Assembly: GCA_017856455.1 (NCBI GenBank)
Contig: JAFMEZ010000003.1
Coordinates: 1 to 64,000 of the forward strand
Length of the DNA: 64,000 nt
Direction: 5' to 3'
From: Parafilimonas sp.
GTDB lineage: Bacteria > Bacteroidota > Bacteroidia > Chitinophagales > Chitinophagaceae
Part shown: positions 5,695-52,553 of the stretch, piece by piece
Layout: every line of letters begins with the position of its first letter
How positions within the stretch are numbered: position 1 is the stretch's first letter
The notes under the pieces: model-generated
What the model was told of the DNA's origin: nothing
What the model saw: only the letters and a program-made list of their open reading frames with translations
Databases searched by the model: none
Position numbers and translations under genes: made by a program

Positions 5695-6357
5695 TCAATT
5701 GATTTTGTATTGTTGAAATACAATTTCTGCTTTTCCCTTATTCAACATCGCAGTATTTACTTTTTCATTCTTCCGACTGCTATTATCAAAATCCAATGTC
5801 AATCCTTTGGGTATTTTATAGTCTTTTGCATTGAACGTAAATATTAATTTATCAGGTAAGCCGTATTGAATATATTTTCCGTATTGCATTTCCATCTCAT
5901 AAGTGCCCTCTTCTTTTGTGGTTGTACTACTTTTCTCCACAACTAAATCTGTTTCATTGATGTATACAGTTGACAAAACAATATTTGAATTTGAAGAATT
6001 AGGAAGAAGTTTTATTACTCGAAGTACTTTTTGTTTTACTGTTTCCCTCCCACCGTCAATTACAGTGAAATCATTTGAAAAAATGTTTTGTAGTGAAATT
6101 GCGTTTACTCCTTTGGGTATAAATGTTACTCCACTATTACTTTGAATGCTAATCTCATTTGGCTTTTTAAAATATACCTTTACTTTGGCAATAGGTATTT
6201 TTAAATAAGCAATGGTAGTTTTCATCGTACCATTTGCTTCATAGCGATTGATTTTCTCTAATTTGGATTTTACTTGATTAATGAGTTTATTGATATCCTG
6301 ACTTTTCAGATTTGTTTCAACCAATAAAAAAACAAGAAGAGATATAAGGTATTTCAT
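5695..6357 (-). CDS. LolA-like periplasmic lipoprotein-carrier protein
   Basis: A 220-residue secreted protein with signal peptide MKYLISLLVFLLVETNLKSQ. The mature chain has the LolA/LppX pattern: an early helix (INKLINQVKSKLEKINRYEA), then NGTMKTTIAYLKIPIAKVKV, YFKKPNEISIQS and repeated amphipathic beta strands to the end. That fold carries lipids or lipoproteins across the periplasm. The gene follows an ABC-2 permease by five bases and precedes the plug-only gene by 58 bases, so an envelope-transport role is plausible. The sequence is diverged from classical LolA, and I would not call it the housekeeping lolA. Confidence 0.65.
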   Translation of the reverse strand: MKYLISLLVFLLVETNLKSQDINKLINQVKSKLEKINRYEANGTMKTTIAYLKIPIAKVKVYFKKPNEISIQSNSGVTFIPKGVNAISLQNIFSNDFTVIDGGRETVKQKVLRVIKLLPNSSNSNIVLSTVYINETDLVVEKSSTTTKEEGTYEMEMQYGKYIQYGLPDKLIFTFNAKDYKIPKGLTLDFDNSSRKNEKVNTAMLNKGKAEIVFQQYKIN

Positions 6358-43373: not shown

Positions 43374-44759
43374 TTAATCTTCTAATACTCTCTCTGCTTC
43401 TTTGATCATATCTTTTCTGATCATGTATTCAAAGTATCTTTTGTCATTCTCACTTCTTATACTTTGTACAAGTGGTTCATCCCAATCTGAAATCAATTTG
43501 AATTTTTCATTTACTGCATTGAACACTTCACTTCTGACTTTCTTTTGAAGTCCTATGTTTTTGTCTTTGACACCAAGCACATAGTTGATTTCATTGATGG
43601 TGGCAGTTTTATGCGAATTAGATTTCTCCAGCAACATACGTATCAAAGCTTTTTCAATATCTGAAAATTCAAATTTGAAATTTTTTGAATCTGACGATAG
43701 GGCTTTAATACGCTGTACTCTTTTGTCAATAATAATTTTGATAGATATAAAAGTTGAAACCAAAAATATAACTCCACCTAGAATCCATAGCCAAGTATAA
43801 TCTTTTATGGGGTTATATATATGTTCGCCAGTAAATTCAAATGCGTCTATATCCAAATGCACCGAATCAATTTTTTCAGATTCTCTGTCAATAGAATACA
43901 GTGTTTTATTTGTATGAAAGACCATGCTGTGGTCAGTTATTCTCATATAAAGCTGTGCGAATACATTGTCATTAAGTTTTAAAATTTTATTATTTAAGTA
44001 ATCAAAAAGGTATAATTGTTCAAAACTAAGTACAATAAGTCCTCTCTCTGTGCTAAGGAATAGATTAGATTCTTTTAATAAGTTAACAGCAATTTCTGTG
44101 GTATTACCTAAAACACTCCAATCATTTGATTTTAAATCAAATTTGTATGCAATTGGTAAAATTTTACCAATTTGGTAAGCGTTTTCTTTTAAAGCCGCGT
44201 TGATATCATATTGAAAGGCAGTGAAAAGTAGATTGTTTTTATAATCATGCCAGACATTAATGATTTTCAAAATTTGTGGTGCTACCTCAATATTTGTTTT
44301 AAGGACACTCCACTCCCTACTTTTTTCATCAAACTTTCTAATTAGTCCATTGTTTTTCCAAAATCCATACCCCCCATAATTATAGATGTCTGATTTGCTT
44401 GTGAAGTTGAATGAACCTATACAGTAATTTAAGTTTACTGTTTTGTCGATTTTTTTAAAAACAGCATTACTATCATTCAATTCAATTAGTTTATAAAGGA
44501 ATCCTCCTCCATCGTACCTCACATATATGTCATTATTTACTTTCATTAGAACCTGTTCTCTTTCCAAGAAGGATCCGTATGGAATTTTTAAATAACCGTT
44601 GGCAACTTTACTATAGATGGGATATATATATTGATTAGTACTCCTTAACAAGTTTAAAATTTTGACTTTATTTGTCTGAACTATTGAGTCATTCGCTTGA
44701 GAAAAGGTTATTTCCGATATCAGCAGGAATGAAAAAACCAAGGAAATAATAAATTTCAT
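43374..44759 (-). CDS. Membrane-tethered winged-helix protein with periplasmic propeller-like sensor
   Basis: A 461-residue protein I cannot assign to a named family. A signal peptide (MKFIISLVFSFLLISEITFS) leads to a periplasmic region of about 290 residues with repeated beta strands, including NYGGYGFWKNNGLIRKFDEK, SREWSVLKTNIE and SNDWSVLGN, suggestive of Kelch-like propeller blades. One membrane helix follows (YTWLWILGGVIFLVSTFISI, residues 322-341). The cytoplasmic tail of about 115 residues looks like a winged helix: SDIEKALIRMLLEK, TINEINYVLGV, IGLQKKVRSEVFNAVNEKFK and a wing LVQSIRSENDKRYFEYMI. This would make it a one-protein transmembrane regulator. A palindrome lies just upstream of its start. 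Function inferred from layout only. Confidence 0.75.
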   Translation of the reverse strand: MKFIISLVFSFLLISEITFSQANDSIVQTNKVKILNLLRSTNQYIYPIYSKVANGYLKIPYGSFLEREQVLMKVNNDIYVRYDGGGFLYKLIELNDSNAVFKKIDKTVNLNYCIGSFNFTSKSDIYNYGGYGFWKNNGLIRKFDEKSREWSVLKTNIEVAPQILKIINVWHDYKNNLLFTAFQYDINAALKENAYQIGKILPIAYKFDLKSNDWSVLGNTTEIAVNLLKESNLFLSTERGLIVLSFEQLYLFDYLNNKILKLNDNVFAQLYMRITDHSMVFHTNKTLYSIDRESEKIDSVHLDIDAFEFTGEHIYNPIKDYTWLWILGGVIFLVSTFISIKIIIDKRVQRIKALSSDSKNFKFEFSDIEKALIRMLLEKSNSHKTATINEINYVLGVKDKNIGLQKKVRSEVFNAVNEKFKLISDWDEPLVQSIRSENDKRYFEYMIRKDMIKEAERVLED

Positions 44760-44782
44760 AAAATATTGGTATTCAATTATTT

Positions 44783-44800
44783 AACAGGAAATTTCCTGTT
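44783..44800. promoter_or_regulatory. 18-bp perfect palindrome upstream of the winged-helix gene
   Basis: AACAGGAAATTTCCTGTT reads identically on both strands. It lies 24 bases upstream of the ATG at 44759, where a repressor or activator dimer could control that gene. It is a candidate operator; a self-regulating role for the tethered winged-helix protein is only a guess. Confidence 0.5.
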
Positions 44801-44867
44801 TATTAATTTTGGATTTATCTTATAAATATAGGCAATAACCTAGAAATTATCCAGTTACATAACCTAA

Positions 44868-44966: not shown

Positions 44967-44996
44967 AAAAACCCATGTTTTAACATGGGTTTTTTG
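44967..44996. terminator. Strong terminator inside a divergent gap
   Basis: AAAACCCATGTT (44968-44979) and AACATGGGTTTT (44982-44993) form a perfect 12-bp stem with a two-base loop, followed by further Ts on the plus strand and preceded by As. It lies between divergent genes, where no annotated transcript ends, about 60 bases upstream of the M16 gene. It could stop a short RNA, or act as an attenuator for the M16 mRNA if transcription starts upstream of it. Confidence 0.85.
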
Positions 44997-45055
44997 ATGA
45001 CTGGTAATCAGTCCTGATATCTACTTATTAATTTTAACCCCTTAAAACCTTTGTG

Positions 45056-47869
45056 ATGAAGAATAAATTTTTAGGACTCCTTTTTATTTATGTTGTTTCG
45101 GTCTTTCAATCCTTTTCTCAAGTAGATCTCAATGCTGCTTTGCCCATTGACCCTAAACTTGTCACTGGAAAATTGACCAATGGATTGACTTATTATATCA
45201 GAGAGAATAAGAAACCTGAGAAAAAAGTAGAATTGCGACTGGTAGTTAAAGTAGGATCTATTGTAGAGGATGATGATCAACAGGGATTAGCGCATATGGC
45301 TGAGCATATGGCATTTAACGGCACCAAAAATTTCAAAAAGAATGAAATCGTTTCATACTTGCAATCTATTGGAGTAGAATTTGGAAATGATTTAAATGCA
45401 TATACATCTTTTGATGAAACAGTCTATATCCTTCCTATTCCAACAGATCAACCAAACAATCTTGAAAAAGGATTTCAGATTTTAGAAGATTGGGCTCATC
45501 AGGTAACTTATTTTGATGAAGACATCAACAGTGAGCGTGCAATCATTTTAGAGGAGAGTCGTTTGGGAAAAAGTGGTGAGGAGAGAATGTTTAAGAAAAT
45601 ATATCCTGAACTTTTTAAAGGATCTCAATATGCCAACCGTTTGCCTATTGGGGTTGATAGCATTATCAAGGGTTTTCAACCTGATGCCATCAGAAGGTAT
45701 TACAGAGATTGGTATCGTCCAGATTTAATGGCAGTAATCGTAACAGGAGATATTTCAAAAGAGGAAGCACTCAAATACATCAATAAACATTTTGGAGGTA
45801 TTCAATCAAGCAGTAAAAGAGTCAGAAAATATTTTGATGTGCCACCATATCAATCATCTAAAGCGATGATCGTAACAGATAAAGAGGCTACTGGTTTTGA
45901 TTTTGGTATTATATATCCGGCTTTTAATTTTAAGCGCGCTACGAATGTGAAAGAATATAAGCAAGAGATTATTGAATCGCTGTATTCATCAATGTTATCA
46001 AATAGATTACAGGAATTGGTAAAAAAAGAAAATCCACCATTTGTATTTGCCTATGCTGGATTTGATGGATATGCTAGAAATTATAAATCTTTCATGATTC
46101 AGGGAGTTACAGGTACTAACGATGTTCAGAAAGGTATTGATGCAGCATTGACGGAAGTAGAAAGAGTAAAGCGTTTTGGTTTTACTGTTGCAGAATTGGA
46201 AAGAGCAAAGAAGACTGTATTGAGTAATTATGAAAAAAGCTGGAATAACAGAGATAAGACAGAGTCTGAAAATTATGCGCAAGAATACATCAGCAATTTT
46301 ATAGAGAATGAACCAGTTCCTGGGATAGAGTATGAGTTTGATATGGTAAAGAAATTATTACCAACCATTCAACTTAACGAAATCAATGCGGTAACTGATA
46401 GCTATAAAAATGAAAAAAATCGTTTCAGTTTTGTAATGGGGCCGGATGCATCAACAATTAAACTACCATCTGAGTCAGATATCGTAAAGATGTTGGATGC
46501 CAAGTCGGCCGATGCAAATATTAAACCATATGAAGAAAAAGCAATTGCTTCTTCATTGCTGAGTGTTGAACCCAAGGCAGGAAAAATTATTTCGACAACA
46601 AAAAATACAGTTTTAGGTACAACTGAACTTACACTTTCCAATGGGGTGAAAGTAACTTTAAAGCGAACTGATTTTAAAGATGATCAGATTCTACTCAATG
46701 GATCTCGTTATGGTGGCACCACAAATTATGGTTTGAAGGATAAGTATAGTGCAGAAAATGCAGTTGCTATTGTTTCAAGCATGGGAATCGGTGCCTTTAG
46801 TCCTGTTGATCTCGGAAAGGCGATGGCAGGGAAAGTTGCATCTGTTAGACCTTCTATGAGTCAGTATTCAGCAGGTTTTTCTGGAAGTTCAAGCAACAAG
46901 GATGTGGAGAGCATGTTCCAGTTGCTTTACTTAAACGTTACATCTCCAAGAAGAGACAGCGGATTGTTCAATGCTTATTTGCAAAGAGCAAAGGCTCAAG
47001 TTTCTATGTTGAAGTCGAATCCTCAAATCGCATTCATTGATACACTTTATACTGAGATATTCAATGGTAATCCATTGGCTCCCACAACAGTGCCCAAGAT
47101 GGAGCATTTTGATAAAATACAATTGGATAGGGTCATGTCAATATACAATGATCGATTGGGTGATGTAGGGGGGATGCATTTTAGTATTGTTGGAAGTTTT
47201 GATGAAAAGTTGATTACAGGGATGATTGAAAAATATATCGCATCATTACCTGCAAAAGGGAAGTCACTGTTTGTAGACAACAAGGTGAATGAATTTACTG
47301 GTGTAAAAGATTTCCGTTTCAGAAAAGGTAAAGAAGAAAAAAGTTTGATTGTTGGAATACTTCATGGTGAATTACCTTATTCAGAATCAAATGCTTTAAA
47401 ATTATTGGGATTAAGTGATGCATTGAACATCATTATTATTGAGGAAATGCGTGAAAAAATTCAAGGAATTTATGGAGGAGGCACCAATGTCTCACTCGAT
47501 AAAATTCCAGCAGGTAAATATCAGTTGGTCCTCCAATTGCCATGCGGACCAGATAAGGTGGATACACTCATCAAGGCATTCAACGCTGAATTAAAGTCGA
47601 TCGCTGAAAAAGGGATTGACCAGTCGTATGTAGAAAAGATTAAGAAGGCATGGGTTGAGAAGAGAAAGGTCGATATCAAGAAAAACGAATATTGGCTATC
47701 TGTTTTGCAGGCCTTAAAATCTGGGGAGAGAACAATAGATAGGGTTGTCAATGGCGAAAAATATTTGAATGCATTTTCTGCAAAAGATGTGCAGGATGCC
47801 GCCAAAATAGTTATGTCGGCCAAAGGCAAAATGATGGCCGTTCAGTTGCCAGAATCTCCAAAAAAGTAA
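45056..47869 (+). CDS. M16 family zinc metallopeptidase, secreted
   Basis: A 937-residue pitrilysin-family peptidase made of two fused M16 halves. I use the ATG at 45056, not the GTG three bases before it. Signal peptide: MKNKFLGLLFIYVVSVFQSFS. The inverted zinc motif HxxEH is in QGLAHMAEHMAFNGTKNFKK at about residue 80, and the distal Glu is probably in SERAIILEESRLGKSGEERM. The C-terminal half (FRKGKEEKSLIVGILHGELP; REKIQGIYGGGTNVSLDKIP) lacks a zinc motif, as usual. It should degrade peptides in the periplasm. A terminator follows directly, so it is probably monocistronic. Confidence 0.93.
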   Translation: MKNKFLGLLFIYVVSVFQSFSQVDLNAALPIDPKLVTGKLTNGLTYYIRENKKPEKKVELRLVVKVGSIVEDDDQQGLAHMAEHMAFNGTKNFKKNEIVSYLQSIGVEFGNDLNAYTSFDETVYILPIPTDQPNNLEKGFQILEDWAHQVTYFDEDINSERAIILEESRLGKSGEERMFKKIYPELFKGSQYANRLPIGVDSIIKGFQPDAIRRYYRDWYRPDLMAVIVTGDISKEEALKYINKHFGGIQSSSKRVRKYFDVPPYQSSKAMIVTDKEATGFDFGIIYPAFNFKRATNVKEYKQEIIESLYSSMLSNRLQELVKKENPPFVFAYAGFDGYARNYKSFMIQGVTGTNDVQKGIDAALTEVERVKRFGFTVAELERAKKTVLSNYEKSWNNRDKTESENYAQEYISNFIENEPVPGIEYEFDMVKKLLPTIQLNEINAVTDSYKNEKNRFSFVMGPDASTIKLPSESDIVKMLDAKSADANIKPYEEKAIASSLLSVEPKAGKIISTTKNTVLGTTELTLSNGVKVTLKRTDFKDDQILLNGSRYGGTTNYGLKDKYSAENAVAIVSSMGIGAFSPVDLGKAMAGKVASVRPSMSQYSAGFSGSSSNKDVESMFQLLYLNVTSPRRDSGLFNAYLQRAKAQVSMLKSNPQIAFIDTLYTEIFNGNPLAPTTVPKMEHFDKIQLDRVMSIYNDRLGDVGGMHFSIVGSFDEKLITGMIEKYIASLPAKGKSLFVDNKVNEFTGVKDFRFRKGKEEKSLIVGILHGELPYSESNALKLLGLSDALNIIIIEEMREKIQGIYGGGTNVSLDKIPAGKYQLVLQLPCGPDKVDTLIKAFNAELKSIAEKGIDQSYVEKIKKAWVEKRKVDIKKNEYWLSVLQALKSGERTIDRVVNGEKYLNAFSAKDVQDAAKIVMSAKGKMMAVQLPESPKK

Positions 47870-47879
47870 CTTTTGAACC

Positions 47880-47911
47880 AATAAGGGGCTTAAATGCCCC
47901 TTATTTTTTTG
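47880..47911 (+). terminator. Rho-independent terminator after the M16 gene
   Basis: AATAAGGGGC and GCCCCTTATT form a perfect 10-bp stem around TTAAAT, and Ts follow on the plus strand. It starts 11 bases after the M16 stop. Confidence 0.95.
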
Positions 47912-47925
47912 AATCTTACGAAAAC

Positions 47926-47950
47926 GGGAATAAATTCTTAAAATATTCCC
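47926..47950. promoter_or_regulatory. Inverted repeat upstream of the secretion-operon promoter
   Basis: GGGAATA (47926-47932) and TATTCCC (47944-47950) are perfect inverted copies 11 bases apart. They end seven bases before the TTG of the predicted promoter, a place suited to an activator. Candidate site only. Confidence 0.4.
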
Positions 47951-47956
47951 TATGAG

Positions 47957-47987
47957 TTGTTGAAACTATCGTTCCAATTTAGTTTTG
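47957..47987 (+). promoter_or_regulatory. Predicted Bacteroidota promoter of the type I secretion operon
   Basis: TTGTTG at 47957-47962 and TAGTTTTG at 47980-47987 match the -33 TTG and -7 TAnnTTTG consensus of this phylum; the spacer is 17 or 20 bases depending on which TTG is used. The start codon is 86 bases beyond the -7 element, giving a leader of about 80 bases. Confidence 0.65.
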
Positions 47988-48073
47988 CAGGATTGAACAT
48001 TTCCACTATATCATTTGTTTTCAAATGGTTATAAAAATGATCAAGGCTCCCGTTGTAGTTCTAAACTAATCCG

Positions 48074-49798
48074 ATGGCAATTTTAAAAGAATCAGTTTCC
48101 CTGAGTGGGGCACTCAAAAAATTTTTTCAGGTAATTCGACTTGAAAAAAAGGAAGTATCTGCCATCTATTTTTATTCCATTTTGAGTGGATTGATTCAAC
48201 TTTCTCTTCCATTAGGTATACAGGCGATCATCAATTTTGCACAGGCAGCGGCAGGATCTGGACGTCTTCCTGTTTCCATAGGAATATTAATTGCCCTGGT
48301 ATTGGGCGGGGTGTTGGTTGCTGGCATATTGCAGGTCAATCAAATGAAGATCATTGAAAAAATCCAACAACGACTTTTTACCAGATACGCATTTGAATTT
48401 AGTTTTAAAATTCCCAGGGTTGATTCCAACGCGATCAATCATTACCATTTTCCAGAATTGGTGAATCGATTTTTTGAAACAGTTACTTTACAGAAGGGGT
48501 TGTCTAAATTTTTGCTGGATATCCCTATGGCAATCATCCAAATTCTATTTGGATTGATATTATTATCGTTCTATAATCCCACATTCATTTTTTTAGGACT
48601 GTTACTCTTTATGCTTTTATACCTTGTTTTGTATTTCACTGCAAAACGTGGTTTGGCAGAGTCCATGAACGAGAGTGACTATAAATATAAAGTTGCGGGA
48701 TGGATGCAGGAGGTTGCAAGAGCTTTTAAGAGTTTTAAGGTTTCCGGAATGCATAATCTCCATTTGAAAAAGACGGATGAATATCTTGAAGGATACATAG
48801 CTTCTAAAACTGCACATTTTAAAACACTTGCTTACCAGTATTGGAGCCTGATCATTTTTAAATTATTGATCAGTGCAACGATGTTGATTATTGGATCTGT
48901 ACTCTTGGTTAACCAGCAGTTAAATGTTGGTCAATTTATTGCTGCTGAGATTGTTATTTTGTTGGTATTGAATGCAGTTGAAAAATTGATATTGAATTTA
49001 GAAAATGCATATGATCTGCTCACCGGACTGGAAAAAATAAGTAAAATAACTGATCAGCCTAGTGAGTCTGAAGGAAACATCAAGTTCGAGTCAACCCATT
49101 CAGGAATCACGATTTCTTCTCACAATATTGATTTTTCATATGACGAGGGACATCAAGTATTAAAAGATATAAACATAAATATTGCACCAGGTCAAAAAGT
49201 ATGCATCATGGGTGATGCGGCATCAGGTAAATCGACATTGATGGAATTATTGACTGGTAATCTAAAGTCCTTTGAAGGGAATCTGCTTATTAACAATATT
49301 CCTATCAATAACCTTGATATGGATTCATACCGAAGACATATTGGTGTCTTCTATGATGAGCAGGATATTTTCTATGCAAGTCTTATGGACAATATCTGTA
49401 TGGGCAATACTTCCATCACAGCCAATGAACTCATGCAACTAGCAGATGTAATTGGATTAAAGGAATACATCAATCAGTTGCCGAATGGTCTCGACACTAT
49501 GTTGGAACCTACCGGTAAGGGATTGAGTACCATTATTGCAAAAAAGGTTTTGTTATTGAGGACTATTGTCAATCAGCCTAAACTACTCTTGTTAGACGAG
49601 CCATTTGAGTTAGCAGGCGCCGAGTCGAGTAAAAATATAAGTGACTATTTACTTACGTTGAAAAACATAACAACAGTAGTCATTACTGGATATAAACCAT
49701 TTGCTGAGAAAGCAGATCTTGTAATTTGGATGGACCATGGCAAGATAAAACATATGGGTTCACCTTCTGAAGTTTTCACTAAACATGGGATTGCATGA
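48074..49798 (+). CDS. Type I secretion ABC transporter/ATPase with degenerate signature
   Basis: A 574-residue fusion of an ABC exporter membrane domain (about six helices, from IYFYSILSGLIQLSLPLGIQ to IGSVLLVNQQLNVGQFIAAE) and an ATPase domain. There is no C39 peptidase domain at the N-terminus. Walker A is MGDAASGKSTLMEL and Walker B is [13 protein letters not shown]. The LSGGQ signature is altered to GLSTIIAKKVLLLRT, and the H-loop His appears lost (VVITGYKPFAEKADLVIWMD). Similar departures occur in a Bacteroidota subfamily, so this may be its normal state. The stop overlaps the HlyD gene's start (ATGA). Inner-membrane energy source of the secretion trio. Confidence 0.88.
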   Translation: MAILKESVSLSGALKKFFQVIRLEKKEVSAIYFYSILSGLIQLSLPLGIQAIINFAQAAAGSGRLPVSIGILIALVLGGVLVAGILQVNQMKIIEKIQQRLFTRYAFEFSFKIPRVDSNAINHYHFPELVNRFFETVTLQKGLSKFLLDIPMAIIQILFGLILLSFYNPTFIFLGLLLFMLLYLVLYFTAKRGLAESMNESDYKYKVAGWMQEVARAFKSFKVSGMHNLHLKKTDEYLEGYIASKTAHFKTLAYQYWSLIIFKLLISATMLIIGSVLLVNQQLNVGQFIAAEIVILLVLNAVEKLILNLENAYDLLTGLEKISKITDQPSESEGNIKFESTHSGITISSHNIDFSYDEGHQVLKDININIAPGQKVCIMGDAASGKSTLMELLTGNLKSFEGNLLINNIPINNLDMDSYRRHIGVFYDEQDIFYASLMDNICMGNTSITANELMQLADVIGLKEYINQLPNGLDTMLEPTGKGLSTIIAKKVLLLRTIVNQPKLLLLDEPFELAGAESSKNISDYLLTLKNITTVVITGYKPFAEKADLVIWMDHGKIKHMGSPSEVFTKHGIA

Positions 49799-51147
49799 AA
49801 AAATTAGCAGAATCCATCATACATCAAACGGGTTTCCAACCTAATTCACCCAATTTGATATACAGGGCTAATAAAATCAGCAATGTAAAAAAATGGTTTT
49901 GGGGATTTTTCATTTTTTTAATCATTTTTCTGTTTTTGCCTTGGACACAAAATATTTCTACTTCTGGAACTGTTACAACACTGTATCAAGATCAACGTCC
50001 ACAAGAATTGAACTCAGTAATTCCTGGTAGAATTACAAAGTGGTGGGTGAAAGAAGGTGATTTTGTAAACAAAGGCGATACCATCTTAGAATTGGCAGAT
50101 GTTAAAGATGATTATCTAGACACGAACCTTGTTAAAAGAACTGAGGCTCAGTTAGAAGCGAAAGAACAAAAAATTATTTTTTACAACGAAAAAATAAATG
50201 CAATCGTTAATCAAATCGATGCCATAGAAAATGGTCGTGATTTGAAACTGAAATCACTTGAAAATAAACTTGAACAGTTCAAGAGAAAATTGGTAAGTGA
50301 CAGCGCTGAAGTAGTTGCAGCCGAAATGGAGAACAACATTGCAAATCAACAGTTGATTAGGGGTAAACAGATGTTTGCACAAGGTGTCATTCCTTTAACA
50401 GAACTCGAAAAAAGAACAGCGCAGCACAACAAAACAATGGCTGTTTTTACAGAGAAACAACAAAAGTATTTAAACACCAAGCAAGATCTGATCATTACAA
50501 AACTTGAAATGAACAGTGTTCAGCAGGATGCTGCAGATAAAATTTTCAAATCGAAAAGTGAAATCGCTATTTCAAAGAGTGAAATTGCTACCACTGATGG
50601 TGATGTTGCAAAAAATCAAAATCAACTATCAAACTATATTACGCGCGGTAAACAACGCTGGCTGATTGCACCACAAAGCGGACAAATCATTAAAGCAAAA
50701 AAATCGGGGATAAATGAAATTGTGAAAGAAGGTGAAATGATTGTAGAAATCGTACCCAATAAAGTAAATTATGCTGTAGAATTGTTTGTAGAGCCAATGG
50801 ATTTGATTTTGATCAATATTGGTCAGCCTGTTCGTTTGATTTTTGATGGTTTCCCTGCAATTGTTTTCTCGGGTTGGCCAAGGAACAGTTATGGCACATT
50901 TGTTGGAAGGGTTGTTGCGATTGAAAGCAACCGAAATGAAAATGGGAAATTTAGAATTCTTGCAGTGCCAGATGTAAATGAAAAACCATGGCCACTTGAG
51001 TTGAAATTAGGTGCTGGGGTAAAAGGATTTGCATTGCTTAAGAATGTTCAAATATGGTATGAGTTATGGCGTCAAATCAATGGATTTCCACCAGATTACT
51101 ACAAACCCGTTAATACAAGCGAAAATACTGATTCAAAGAAAAAATAG
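49795..51147 (+). CDS. HlyD family membrane fusion protein
   Basis: A 450-residue periplasmic adaptor. After a cytoplasmic N-terminus comes one membrane helix (WFWGFFIFLIIFLFLPW). A split biotinyl-lipoyl half follows (GRITKWWVKEGDFVNKGDTI), then a long coiled coil of about 180 residues (residues roughly 110-290; AQLEAKEQKIIFYNEKINAI). The second half reads LIAPQSGQIIKAKKSGINEI, and a beta-barrel domain comes last (VNYAVELFVEPMDLILINIG). This order is standard for type I secretion adaptors. It overlaps the ABC gene by four bases and precedes the TolC gene by two, so all three should be made together. Confidence 0.92.
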   Translation: MKKLAESIIHQTGFQPNSPNLIYRANKISNVKKWFWGFFIFLIIFLFLPWTQNISTSGTVTTLYQDQRPQELNSVIPGRITKWWVKEGDFVNKGDTILELADVKDDYLDTNLVKRTEAQLEAKEQKIIFYNEKINAIVNQIDAIENGRDLKLKSLENKLEQFKRKLVSDSAEVVAAEMENNIANQQLIRGKQMFAQGVIPLTELEKRTAQHNKTMAVFTEKQQKYLNTKQDLIITKLEMNSVQQDAADKIFKSKSEIAISKSEIATTDGDVAKNQNQLSNYITRGKQRWLIAPQSGQIIKAKKSGINEIVKEGEMIVEIVPNKVNYAVELFVEPMDLILINIGQPVRLIFDGFPAIVFSGWPRNSYGTFVGRVVAIESNRNENGKFRILAVPDVNEKPWPLELKLGAGVKGFALLKNVQIWYELWRQINGFPPDYYKPVNTSENTDSKKK

Positions 51148-51149
51148 GC

Positions 51150-52553
51150 ATGAATAAAAAGTATGCTTTCATTTTTATCAGCCTGATGATTTCAGCAGTT
51201 GAGTTGAAATCACAAAGCAATACATTATCACTAGATAATGCATTGAGTGTAGTTAGGAAATTTCATCCAATTGTCAATCAATCAAACTTGATCATTGAGC
51301 AGTCATCAAATGCTTTGCAGTCTTCAAGAGGACTCTTTGATCCCACATTGATGATCAATAATGAAAGTAAAACTTTTGATAATAAACAATATTTCAGTTA
51401 CTATAATCCAGAATTGAGAATTCCTACATGGTACGGCATTGATTTCAAAGCAGGACTCGAAAACAATACTGGTGATCGCATTGATCAATCGCTAACACAA
51501 AATCGAAGCGCATATCTTGGAGTATCTCTTGATCCCTTAAGGGGATTGATTTATGATAAACGAAGAGCAGCTGTTCAACAGGCAAGCAATATGATCAAGC
51601 TCACAAAACAAGAACAATTACTTGTTGTGAATGATTTGTTATTTGAAACGGCTGAGGCATATTGGAGCTGGGTAAATGCATACTTGGTCAAAAAAATATT
51701 TCAAGAAGCAGTCAAAACAAATCAGTTTCGTTTTGATTTCGTTAAACAAGCCTTTCAACAAGGTGACCGCGCTTCTATCGATACCATAGAAGCACTTGCT
51801 CAATTGCAGTTTGTTCAATCAATGAGATTACAAGCTGATTTGGACCTTCAGAAAGCGAGGTTTTTGTTGAGTAATTATTTTTGGACGGAACAAAATCAAC
51901 CTTATACTTTCAGTGATGAAATTGTTCCAGATACGATTTCTAGCCAATTTGATTATACAAAAATACAATTGCCAATATTGGACAAGCTACTTGACAGAGC
52001 CATGTTGGACCACCCTAAGCTGATTTCAATCGATAGGAAAAGAGACATGTTAGAGATAGATCGAAAAGTCAAGACCCTTGATTTGCTTCCAAGTTTTAAG
52101 GTCAATTATAATTTTTTGGGTAAAGGTTATTCATCATCAGATTTTTTTAAACAGGCGTTGTTTCAGAATAATTATAAATACGGTGTTTCATTTGGACTGC
52201 CATTGCTGCAACGCCAAGCTAGAGGCGAACTTGCAAAAACTAAAAATAAAATTGCAGAAATTGATTATGGTAGAAAATTGGTTGAGCTGGAAATTCAAAA
52301 TAAAGTAAAAAGTACTGTTGCTGAATCAACTTCTTTATTCAGCCAGATCAATGTATCTGCACAAAATTATTTGAACAATAAGTTGTTGTTGGAAGCAGAG
52401 AATATAAAGTTCTCAATGGGAGAAAGCAGTATGTTTCTTGTGAACTCACGTGAAATCAAATTGATAGAAAGTGAGCAAAAGCTGATTGCACTCAAAACCA
52501 AATATTTCAAAAGCATCATTGCGAATCAGTGGGCAGCAGGATTGCTCAGATAA
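51150..52553 (+). CDS. TolC family outer-membrane efflux protein
   Basis: A 467-residue outer-membrane channel protein. Signal peptide: MNKKYAFIFISLMISAVELKSQ. SLDNALSVVRKFHPIVNQSN is the usual TolC opening, and two long helical repeats follow (LFDPTLMINNESKTFDNKQY; ELEIQNKVKSTVAESTSLFS) separated by beta-rich inserts. It completes the ABC/HlyD/TolC trio. No substrate gene with glycine-rich repeats, a double-glycine leader or other known secretion signal is found next to it, so the cargo is unknown. The stop overlaps the convergent sialidase gene by eight bases. Confidence 0.9.
   Translation: MNKKYAFIFISLMISAVELKSQSNTLSLDNALSVVRKFHPIVNQSNLIIEQSSNALQSSRGLFDPTLMINNESKTFDNKQYFSYYNPELRIPTWYGIDFKAGLENNTGDRIDQSLTQNRSAYLGVSLDPLRGLIYDKRRAAVQQASNMIKLTKQEQLLVVNDLLFETAEAYWSWVNAYLVKKIFQEAVKTNQFRFDFVKQAFQQGDRASIDTIEALAQLQFVQSMRLQADLDLQKARFLLSNYFWTEQNQPYTFSDEIVPDTISSQFDYTKIQLPILDKLLDRAMLDHPKLISIDRKRDMLEIDRKVKTLDLLPSFKVNYNFLGKGYSSSDFFKQALFQNNYKYGVSFGLPLLQRQARGELAKTKNKIAEIDYGRKLVELEIQNKVKSTVAESTSLFSQINVSAQNYLNNKLLLEAENIKFSMGESSMFLVNSREIKLIESEQKLIALKTKYFKSIIANQWAAGLLR

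Follow-up and report, generated by a model that had tools for sequence, protein, structure and literature searches.

The window analysed here is a 64,000-nucleotide stretch of a Parafilimonas sp. contig, taken from a 1.94-Mb assembly of 102 contigs that is 89% complete. A minus-strand reading frame in this window encodes a protein of 461 residues, the length given in the original prediction. The protein, referred to below as the regulator, is divided into the following parts.

43374 to 44759, minus strand: coding sequence of the transmembrane regulator, 461 residues (open reading frame call, homologues)
44697 to 44759, minus strand: signal peptide, residues 1-21 (MKFIISLVFSFLLISEITFSQ; read from the sequence, with a hydrophobic N-terminus in 31 of 31 homologues examined)
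43809 to 44687, minus strand: predicted periplasmic beta propeller, residues about 25-317 (AlphaFold2, Foldseek, Pfam kelch and NHL-like 'Pizza' profile)
43725 to 43796, minus strand: single transmembrane helix, about residues 322-345, with a positively charged C-terminal flank (AlphaFold2, topology)
43380 to 43667, minus strand: predicted cytoplasmic winged helix, residues 365-460 (AlphaFold2 secondary structure, pLDDT 84-92 over most of it)
43488 to 43556, minus strand: H3, the predicted recognition helix, residues 402-424 (Q405 and R409 do not vary; the net charge averages +2.9 over the family)
43419 to 43469, minus strand: wing hairpin, residues 431-447 (R435, D439, R441 and Y445 invariant or nearly so)

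The architecture was computed with AlphaFold2 (AF2). A run on the single sequence gave a useless model (pLDDT 38) and was superseded by a run on an alignment of 33 homologues, which reached a mean pLDDT of 89.3. This model places about 290 residues of strands before a helix at residues 322-356, which is followed by the tail, with a low-confidence linker at residues 351-360. The membrane span located by hydropathy (residues 326-344) lies within that helix. Over 31 homologues, 163 Lys and Arg residues were counted on the C-terminal side of the span compared with 47 on the N-terminal side, and the tail is therefore placed in the cytoplasm by the positive-inside rule. The signal peptide and single membrane helix proposed earlier thus agree with the hydrophobic N-termini, the one transmembrane segment and the charge distribution of these 31 homologues. 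A Pfam and NCBIfam search of the 461-residue protein returned nothing above cut-off, and the histidine kinase, receiver and sigma-factor parts that had been said to be missing were not found by this domain search.

The N-terminal beta repeats had been described as propeller-like, and the AF2 strands and several kelch-type matches support this description. By our own strand count the model has five blades, each four-stranded, and one of them carries an invariant kelch-like GGYGFW...W sequence. Pfam kelch matches were obtained in 15 of 33 family members (best E 4.6e-5), and the concordant NHL-like 'Pizza' profile also matches the propeller. The best solved structures found by Foldseek were six-bladed kelch domains (E 6e-8, probability 1.00), with TM-scores of only 0.4-0.5, below 0.55, so that the exact fold is assigned provisionally. 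GG...W repeats folded as a propeller are present, as in kelch-type propellers, and the domain is best described as kelch-like with an uncertain blade number.

The tail had been read as a winged helix, and structure prediction returned the element order of that fold: H1 (367-381), a bridge residue at 386, H2 (388-395), an unusually long H3 (402-424), two strands (431-435 and 443-447) and H4 (449-460). Residues N392, G396, Q405, R409, D439, R441 and Y445 are invariant in the 33-sequence alignment. Family assignment of the tail was less direct. None of the curated Pfam DNA-binding models scored above cut-off against 33 full-length and 32 tail sequences, a tail profile found nothing significant among the sequences of solved structures, and hhalign comparisons with the E. 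coli OmpR, MarR and NarL domains were not significant as fold assignments. Sub-threshold matches to SarA/Rot (four members, best E 0.023), MarR, Rep WH1, DnaD_N and GerE serve as leads and do not indicate membership. The hhalign comparison also aligned the wing with the D-x-R wing of MarR, at a probability of 2%. Given this wing pattern and the sub-threshold SarA/Rot, MarR and ZitR matches, the predicted tail may resemble a MarR/SarA-type winged helix; it differs from those proteins in being membrane-tethered and in having no family match above cut-off. Winged helices can also bind protein or RNA, and the domain as a whole has only a mildly positive net charge (median +2), so the regulator could instead be an envelope adaptor. 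This is considered very unlikely in view of the strongly positive H3 with its invariant Q405 and R409, and of upstream dyads and repeats that track the regulator gene family. The tail is better read as acting on DNA, and the gene very probably encodes a one-piece sensor whose propeller-shaped head would detect a signal outside the inner membrane.

About 50 relatives keep the order of signal peptide, propeller, transmembrane helix and winged helix, and almost all of them belong to the Chitinophagaceae. Of 299 sampled genomes of this family, 20 (own genome included) contain a homologue, as do 20 of the 24 genomes of the regulator's own genus in a later sampling around G142; homologues were also found on ten further contigs. 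In other families of the class homologues are sparse and have the same whole architecture. The regulator is single-copy in its own genome; the only other match there (E 0.12) lies inside a reading frame that reads as malic enzyme and was rejected as chance. Other genomes contain several paralogues, with at least five loci in G255. At one of these (L114, on contig C1, 7321-10193) the regulator is present in tandem copies, and the upstream copy is broken into overlapping frames of 259 and 264 residues, which suggests a decaying or frameshifted duplicate.

The divergent neighbour of the regulator in the window is an M16 peptidase gene. It begins a row that continues with ABC transporter, HlyD-like and TolC-like genes (45053-52553; the four names are our own reading of the sequences), an export-type cluster also seen in L031-L034, L038 and L098 with the regulator in varying positions. 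A terminator-like hairpin (AACCCATGTTTTAACATGGGTTTTTT, 44967-44994) with T-runs on both strands lies between the divergent regulator and M16 genes, and a similar hairpin occurs in L031 near 5771-5793. The M16 gene is adjacent to the regulator in L031, L032, L033, L034, L038 and L098. This adjacency is lost in L099, L035 and L037, and it is therefore read as probably inherited synteny. The M16 gene is an unlikely target of the regulator, since the adjacency is confined to the close clade and the hairpin separates the gene from the upstream sites described below. The neighbourhood also bears on whether the tail might become active only after regulated intramembrane proteolysis, with the propeller sensing for a protease cascade. 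The single-pass layout and the low-confidence linker would suit cleavage. However, no protease is consistently adjacent, and the M16 peptidase, itself no intramembrane protease, is a neighbour in only part of the close clade, so that this route is regarded as improbable and a tail acting from the membrane is preferred.

Four features were recognised upstream of the regulator gene.

44783 to 44800, no strand: perfect 18-bp palindrome AACAGGAAATTTCCTGTT, the third AGG-type site, with its core AGGAAATTTCCT at 44786-44797 (sequence, orthologue alignment)
44823 to 44830, minus strand: TATATTTA, which overlaps the conserved site and is a candidate Bacteroidota -7 element (most of the ten close orthologues have a TAnnTTT-like sequence here)
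44829 to 44841, minus strand: AGGTTATTGCCTA, the site at about -82 relative to the ATG, with deep conservation (all ten close orthologues)
44860 to 44865, minus strand: upstream half-site AGGTTA, with the following AGGTTA (44836-44841) at a distance of 24 bp (genome count, homologue spacing)

The palindrome, proposed earlier to lie 24 bases before the start, is real and lies 23 bases before the ATG. By itself it is weak evidence, because 0.47 perfect 18-bp palindromes are expected by chance per 64 kb and a second one (TTGGTAAAATTTTACCAA, 44153-44170), itself probably due to chance, lies inside the same coding sequence. It is the surrounding set of conserved AGG-type sites that stands above chance, not the palindrome itself. 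The suggested search for homologues with conserved upstream palindromes did find homologues, but of the two closest only L032 keeps the palindrome perfect and in L031 it is broken. A TTACTTTCCT-type sequence is present at its position in L003, L035 and L037. The palindrome is real but is not the main or deepest element: wider conservation is seen for AGGTTATTnCCTA at about -82 and for the AGGTTA direct repeat with its 24-bp period.

The ten close orthologues represent about eight lineages, with near-duplicates such as L034/L038 and L035/L037. At about -82 lies their most conserved upstream stretch, AGGTTATtnC(C/T)T(A/G), and AGGTTATtnCCTA or a near variant is found upstream in all ten, at protein identities of 31-63%. 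An extra orthologue, 73% identical to L038, has AGGTTATAACCT at -82. An AGGTTA-like half-site lies 24 bp upstream of the -82 site in a subset of the close orthologues, and a third site lies 43-44 bp downstream of it; the palindrome is that third site. The -7 consensus of Bacteroidota promoters is TAnnTTTG, and the candidate -7 element would fall partly under the -82 site.

Distant homologues, 21 in number and excluded from motif definition, were used as an independent check set. Their enriched upstream hexamers include TAGGTG, TTAGGT and TAGGTT in second to fourth place, and AGGTGA replaces AGGTTA in some subgroups. In the close and the distant set alike, 24 bp is the leading spacing of AGGT direct repeats, present in six close and three distant homologues. 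In the distant set the three occurrences compare with a mean expectation of 0.05, and no spacing reached three in 300 resamplings. TAGGT[TG]A was counted seven times in eleven divergent intergenic regions compared with 0.69 expected. The repeat is absent upstream of several of the 21 distant members. A further arrangement was seen upstream of L007, L014 and L023, where 86-87 bp separate the two members of AGGTTA pairs, roughly double the 43-44 bp found in the close clade.

Within the regulator's own genome the exact sequence TAGGTTATTNCCTA occurs once, at the 44829-44841 site, and AGGTTA-N17-19-AGGTTA also occurs once, at the regulator's promoter. A wider regulon was considered and rejected for this genome: all remaining AGGWWATNNCCT sites sit within reading frames, as does the one further match to AGGTTA-N18-AGGT, and the motif search identified no second target there. 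Across 299 genomes of the family AGGTTATTNCCTA, a pattern of 13 bases, is found no more often than its reversed control, so placement, and not number, carries the argument from the sites. The restriction of the strict repeat to its own promoter points to autoregulation as the simplest reading. Negative control appears more likely because of the site positions, since one site overlaps the likely -7 element.

Upstream conservation as such could also stem from promoter elements or from the action of another regulator. In that case the AGGTTA-type sites may be part of the core promoter or serve some other regulator, with the targets of the transmembrane regulator elsewhere. The link between sites and protein is solely one of upstream conservation, one site overlaps the -7-like element, and the motif search in the genome yielded no other target, all of which would fit. 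This explanation is nevertheless thought unlikely, though it deserves some weight, because the 24-bp spacing recurs at distant paralogues with different neighbours and the AGG site type is enriched across the family. Ownership of the sites by the regulator is the preferred reading.

A candidate target comes from the distant members. In seven loci (L104, L106, L107, L110, L111, L112 and L113), which represent seven genomes and six genera and are all distant family members, the divergent neighbour is a lipoprotein-type reading frame with a C-terminal LamG domain, 153-377 bp from the regulator. Its stalk is variable, with a coiled coil or Fn3 in some. The genomes of these loci contain only 3-6 LamG matches among several thousand genes, so the seven pairings are far above chance; the divergent arrangement at one locus is estimated at about one in a thousand. 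At two of these loci, L104 and L111, about 50 bp separate the 24-bp repeat from the start of the lipoprotein, which makes the LamG lipoprotein a natural target. No LamG domain was found in the window or elsewhere in the 89%-complete genome. Exported lipoprotein-type frames are also frequent as divergent genes in members that have no LamG partner, for example in L105 (6102-6701), L109 (6257-6640) and L114 (10459-11424); Lcl_C, DUF6567 and BNR-like types are represented.

Taken together, these observations favour a one-component transmembrane regulator of SusR-like topology that would bind AGGTTA-type sites in its own promoter, with a probability of roughly 0.7. The signal peptide would send the N-terminal propeller to the periplasm, one helix would cross the inner membrane and the MarR/SarA-like winged helix would remain cytoplasmic. 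A dimer or higher oligomer would most likely occupy the predicted operator, made up of the 24-bp direct repeat, one copy of which overlaps the likely -7 element, and the third site 43-44 bp downstream. The regulator would in this way set its own level, and negative control is the more likely sign. When the propeller binds a ligand or a protein partner in the periplasm, the way the winged helices are spaced or paired may change. Because distant members stand head-to-head with a LamG gene, the common job of the family is probably the switching of a cell-surface lipoprotein. The direct membrane-to-DNA signalling claimed in the original prediction is well supported in its architecture by the AF2 model and family conservation, and the contact with DNA is predicted.

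Several known systems resemble the regulator. ToxR and CadC also combine a winged helix, one transmembrane helix and a periplasmic sensor in one chain. Their winged helix is at the N-terminus, whereas the order is reversed here, with an N-terminal signal peptide, a C-terminal winged helix and no match to the OmpR-type PF00486. The Bacteroides hybrid two-component proteins likewise fuse a large periplasmic sensor to a cytoplasmic DNA-binding output (predicted here), but the regulator has no kinase, receiver or AraC domain. The layout had not been recognised as a named system in the phylum, but it is not unnamed there. SusR is a membrane protein of a Bacteroidetes-specific family, in which the sensor is periplasmic and the DNA-binding domain cytoplasmic (PMC3878776). 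By this published description, on which the comparison is based, the regulator shares the periplasmic sensor, a C-terminal cytoplasmic DNA-binding domain (predicted here), the Bacteroidetes-specific distribution, a DNA-binding domain that lacks similarity to known families and predicted direct-repeat sites. The tandem sites of SusR are 67 or 77 bp apart (PMC3878776), in contrast to 24 and 43-44 bp here, and SusC and SusD genes are not adjacent to the regulator. The wider class, transmembrane transcription regulators, is also named and is enriched in Bacteroidia (PMC10269533). The regulator fits this class as a single-pass, one-component protein that would act from the inner membrane, with the transmembrane helix and the AF2-predicted cytoplasmic DNA-binding domain in one polypeptide. 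The census of the class identified DNA-binding domains by Pfam models (PMC10269533). The regulator has no domain recognised in this way, and its family would probably have been missed by that census; Pfam recognition is a method of identification and not a biological definition.

Literature searches found no description of this domain combination, and the LamG pairing is undescribed as far as searched. The layout is therefore known, and what appears to be new is the regulator family, with its uncurated tail, predicted sites unlike those of SusR and pairing with LamG genes. This previously unlabelled family is best filed as a new one inside the transmembrane transcription regulators. A broader proposal, held tentatively and at a little under even odds, is that the family has its own winged helix and an operator grammar of AGGTTA/AGGTGA at 24 bp, that the head-to-head LamG pairing is ancestral, and that the propeller tunes a surface lectin or adhesin.

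Few of the transmembrane transcription regulators, a class enriched in Bacteroidia, are understood, and a family that has no Pfam model suggests that the class is undercounted. The confident structure, predicted operator and conserved candidate target gene make this family directly testable. If the link to LamG is true, it would be a simple system in which a single membrane protein links a signal from the envelope with the production of a surface lipoprotein.
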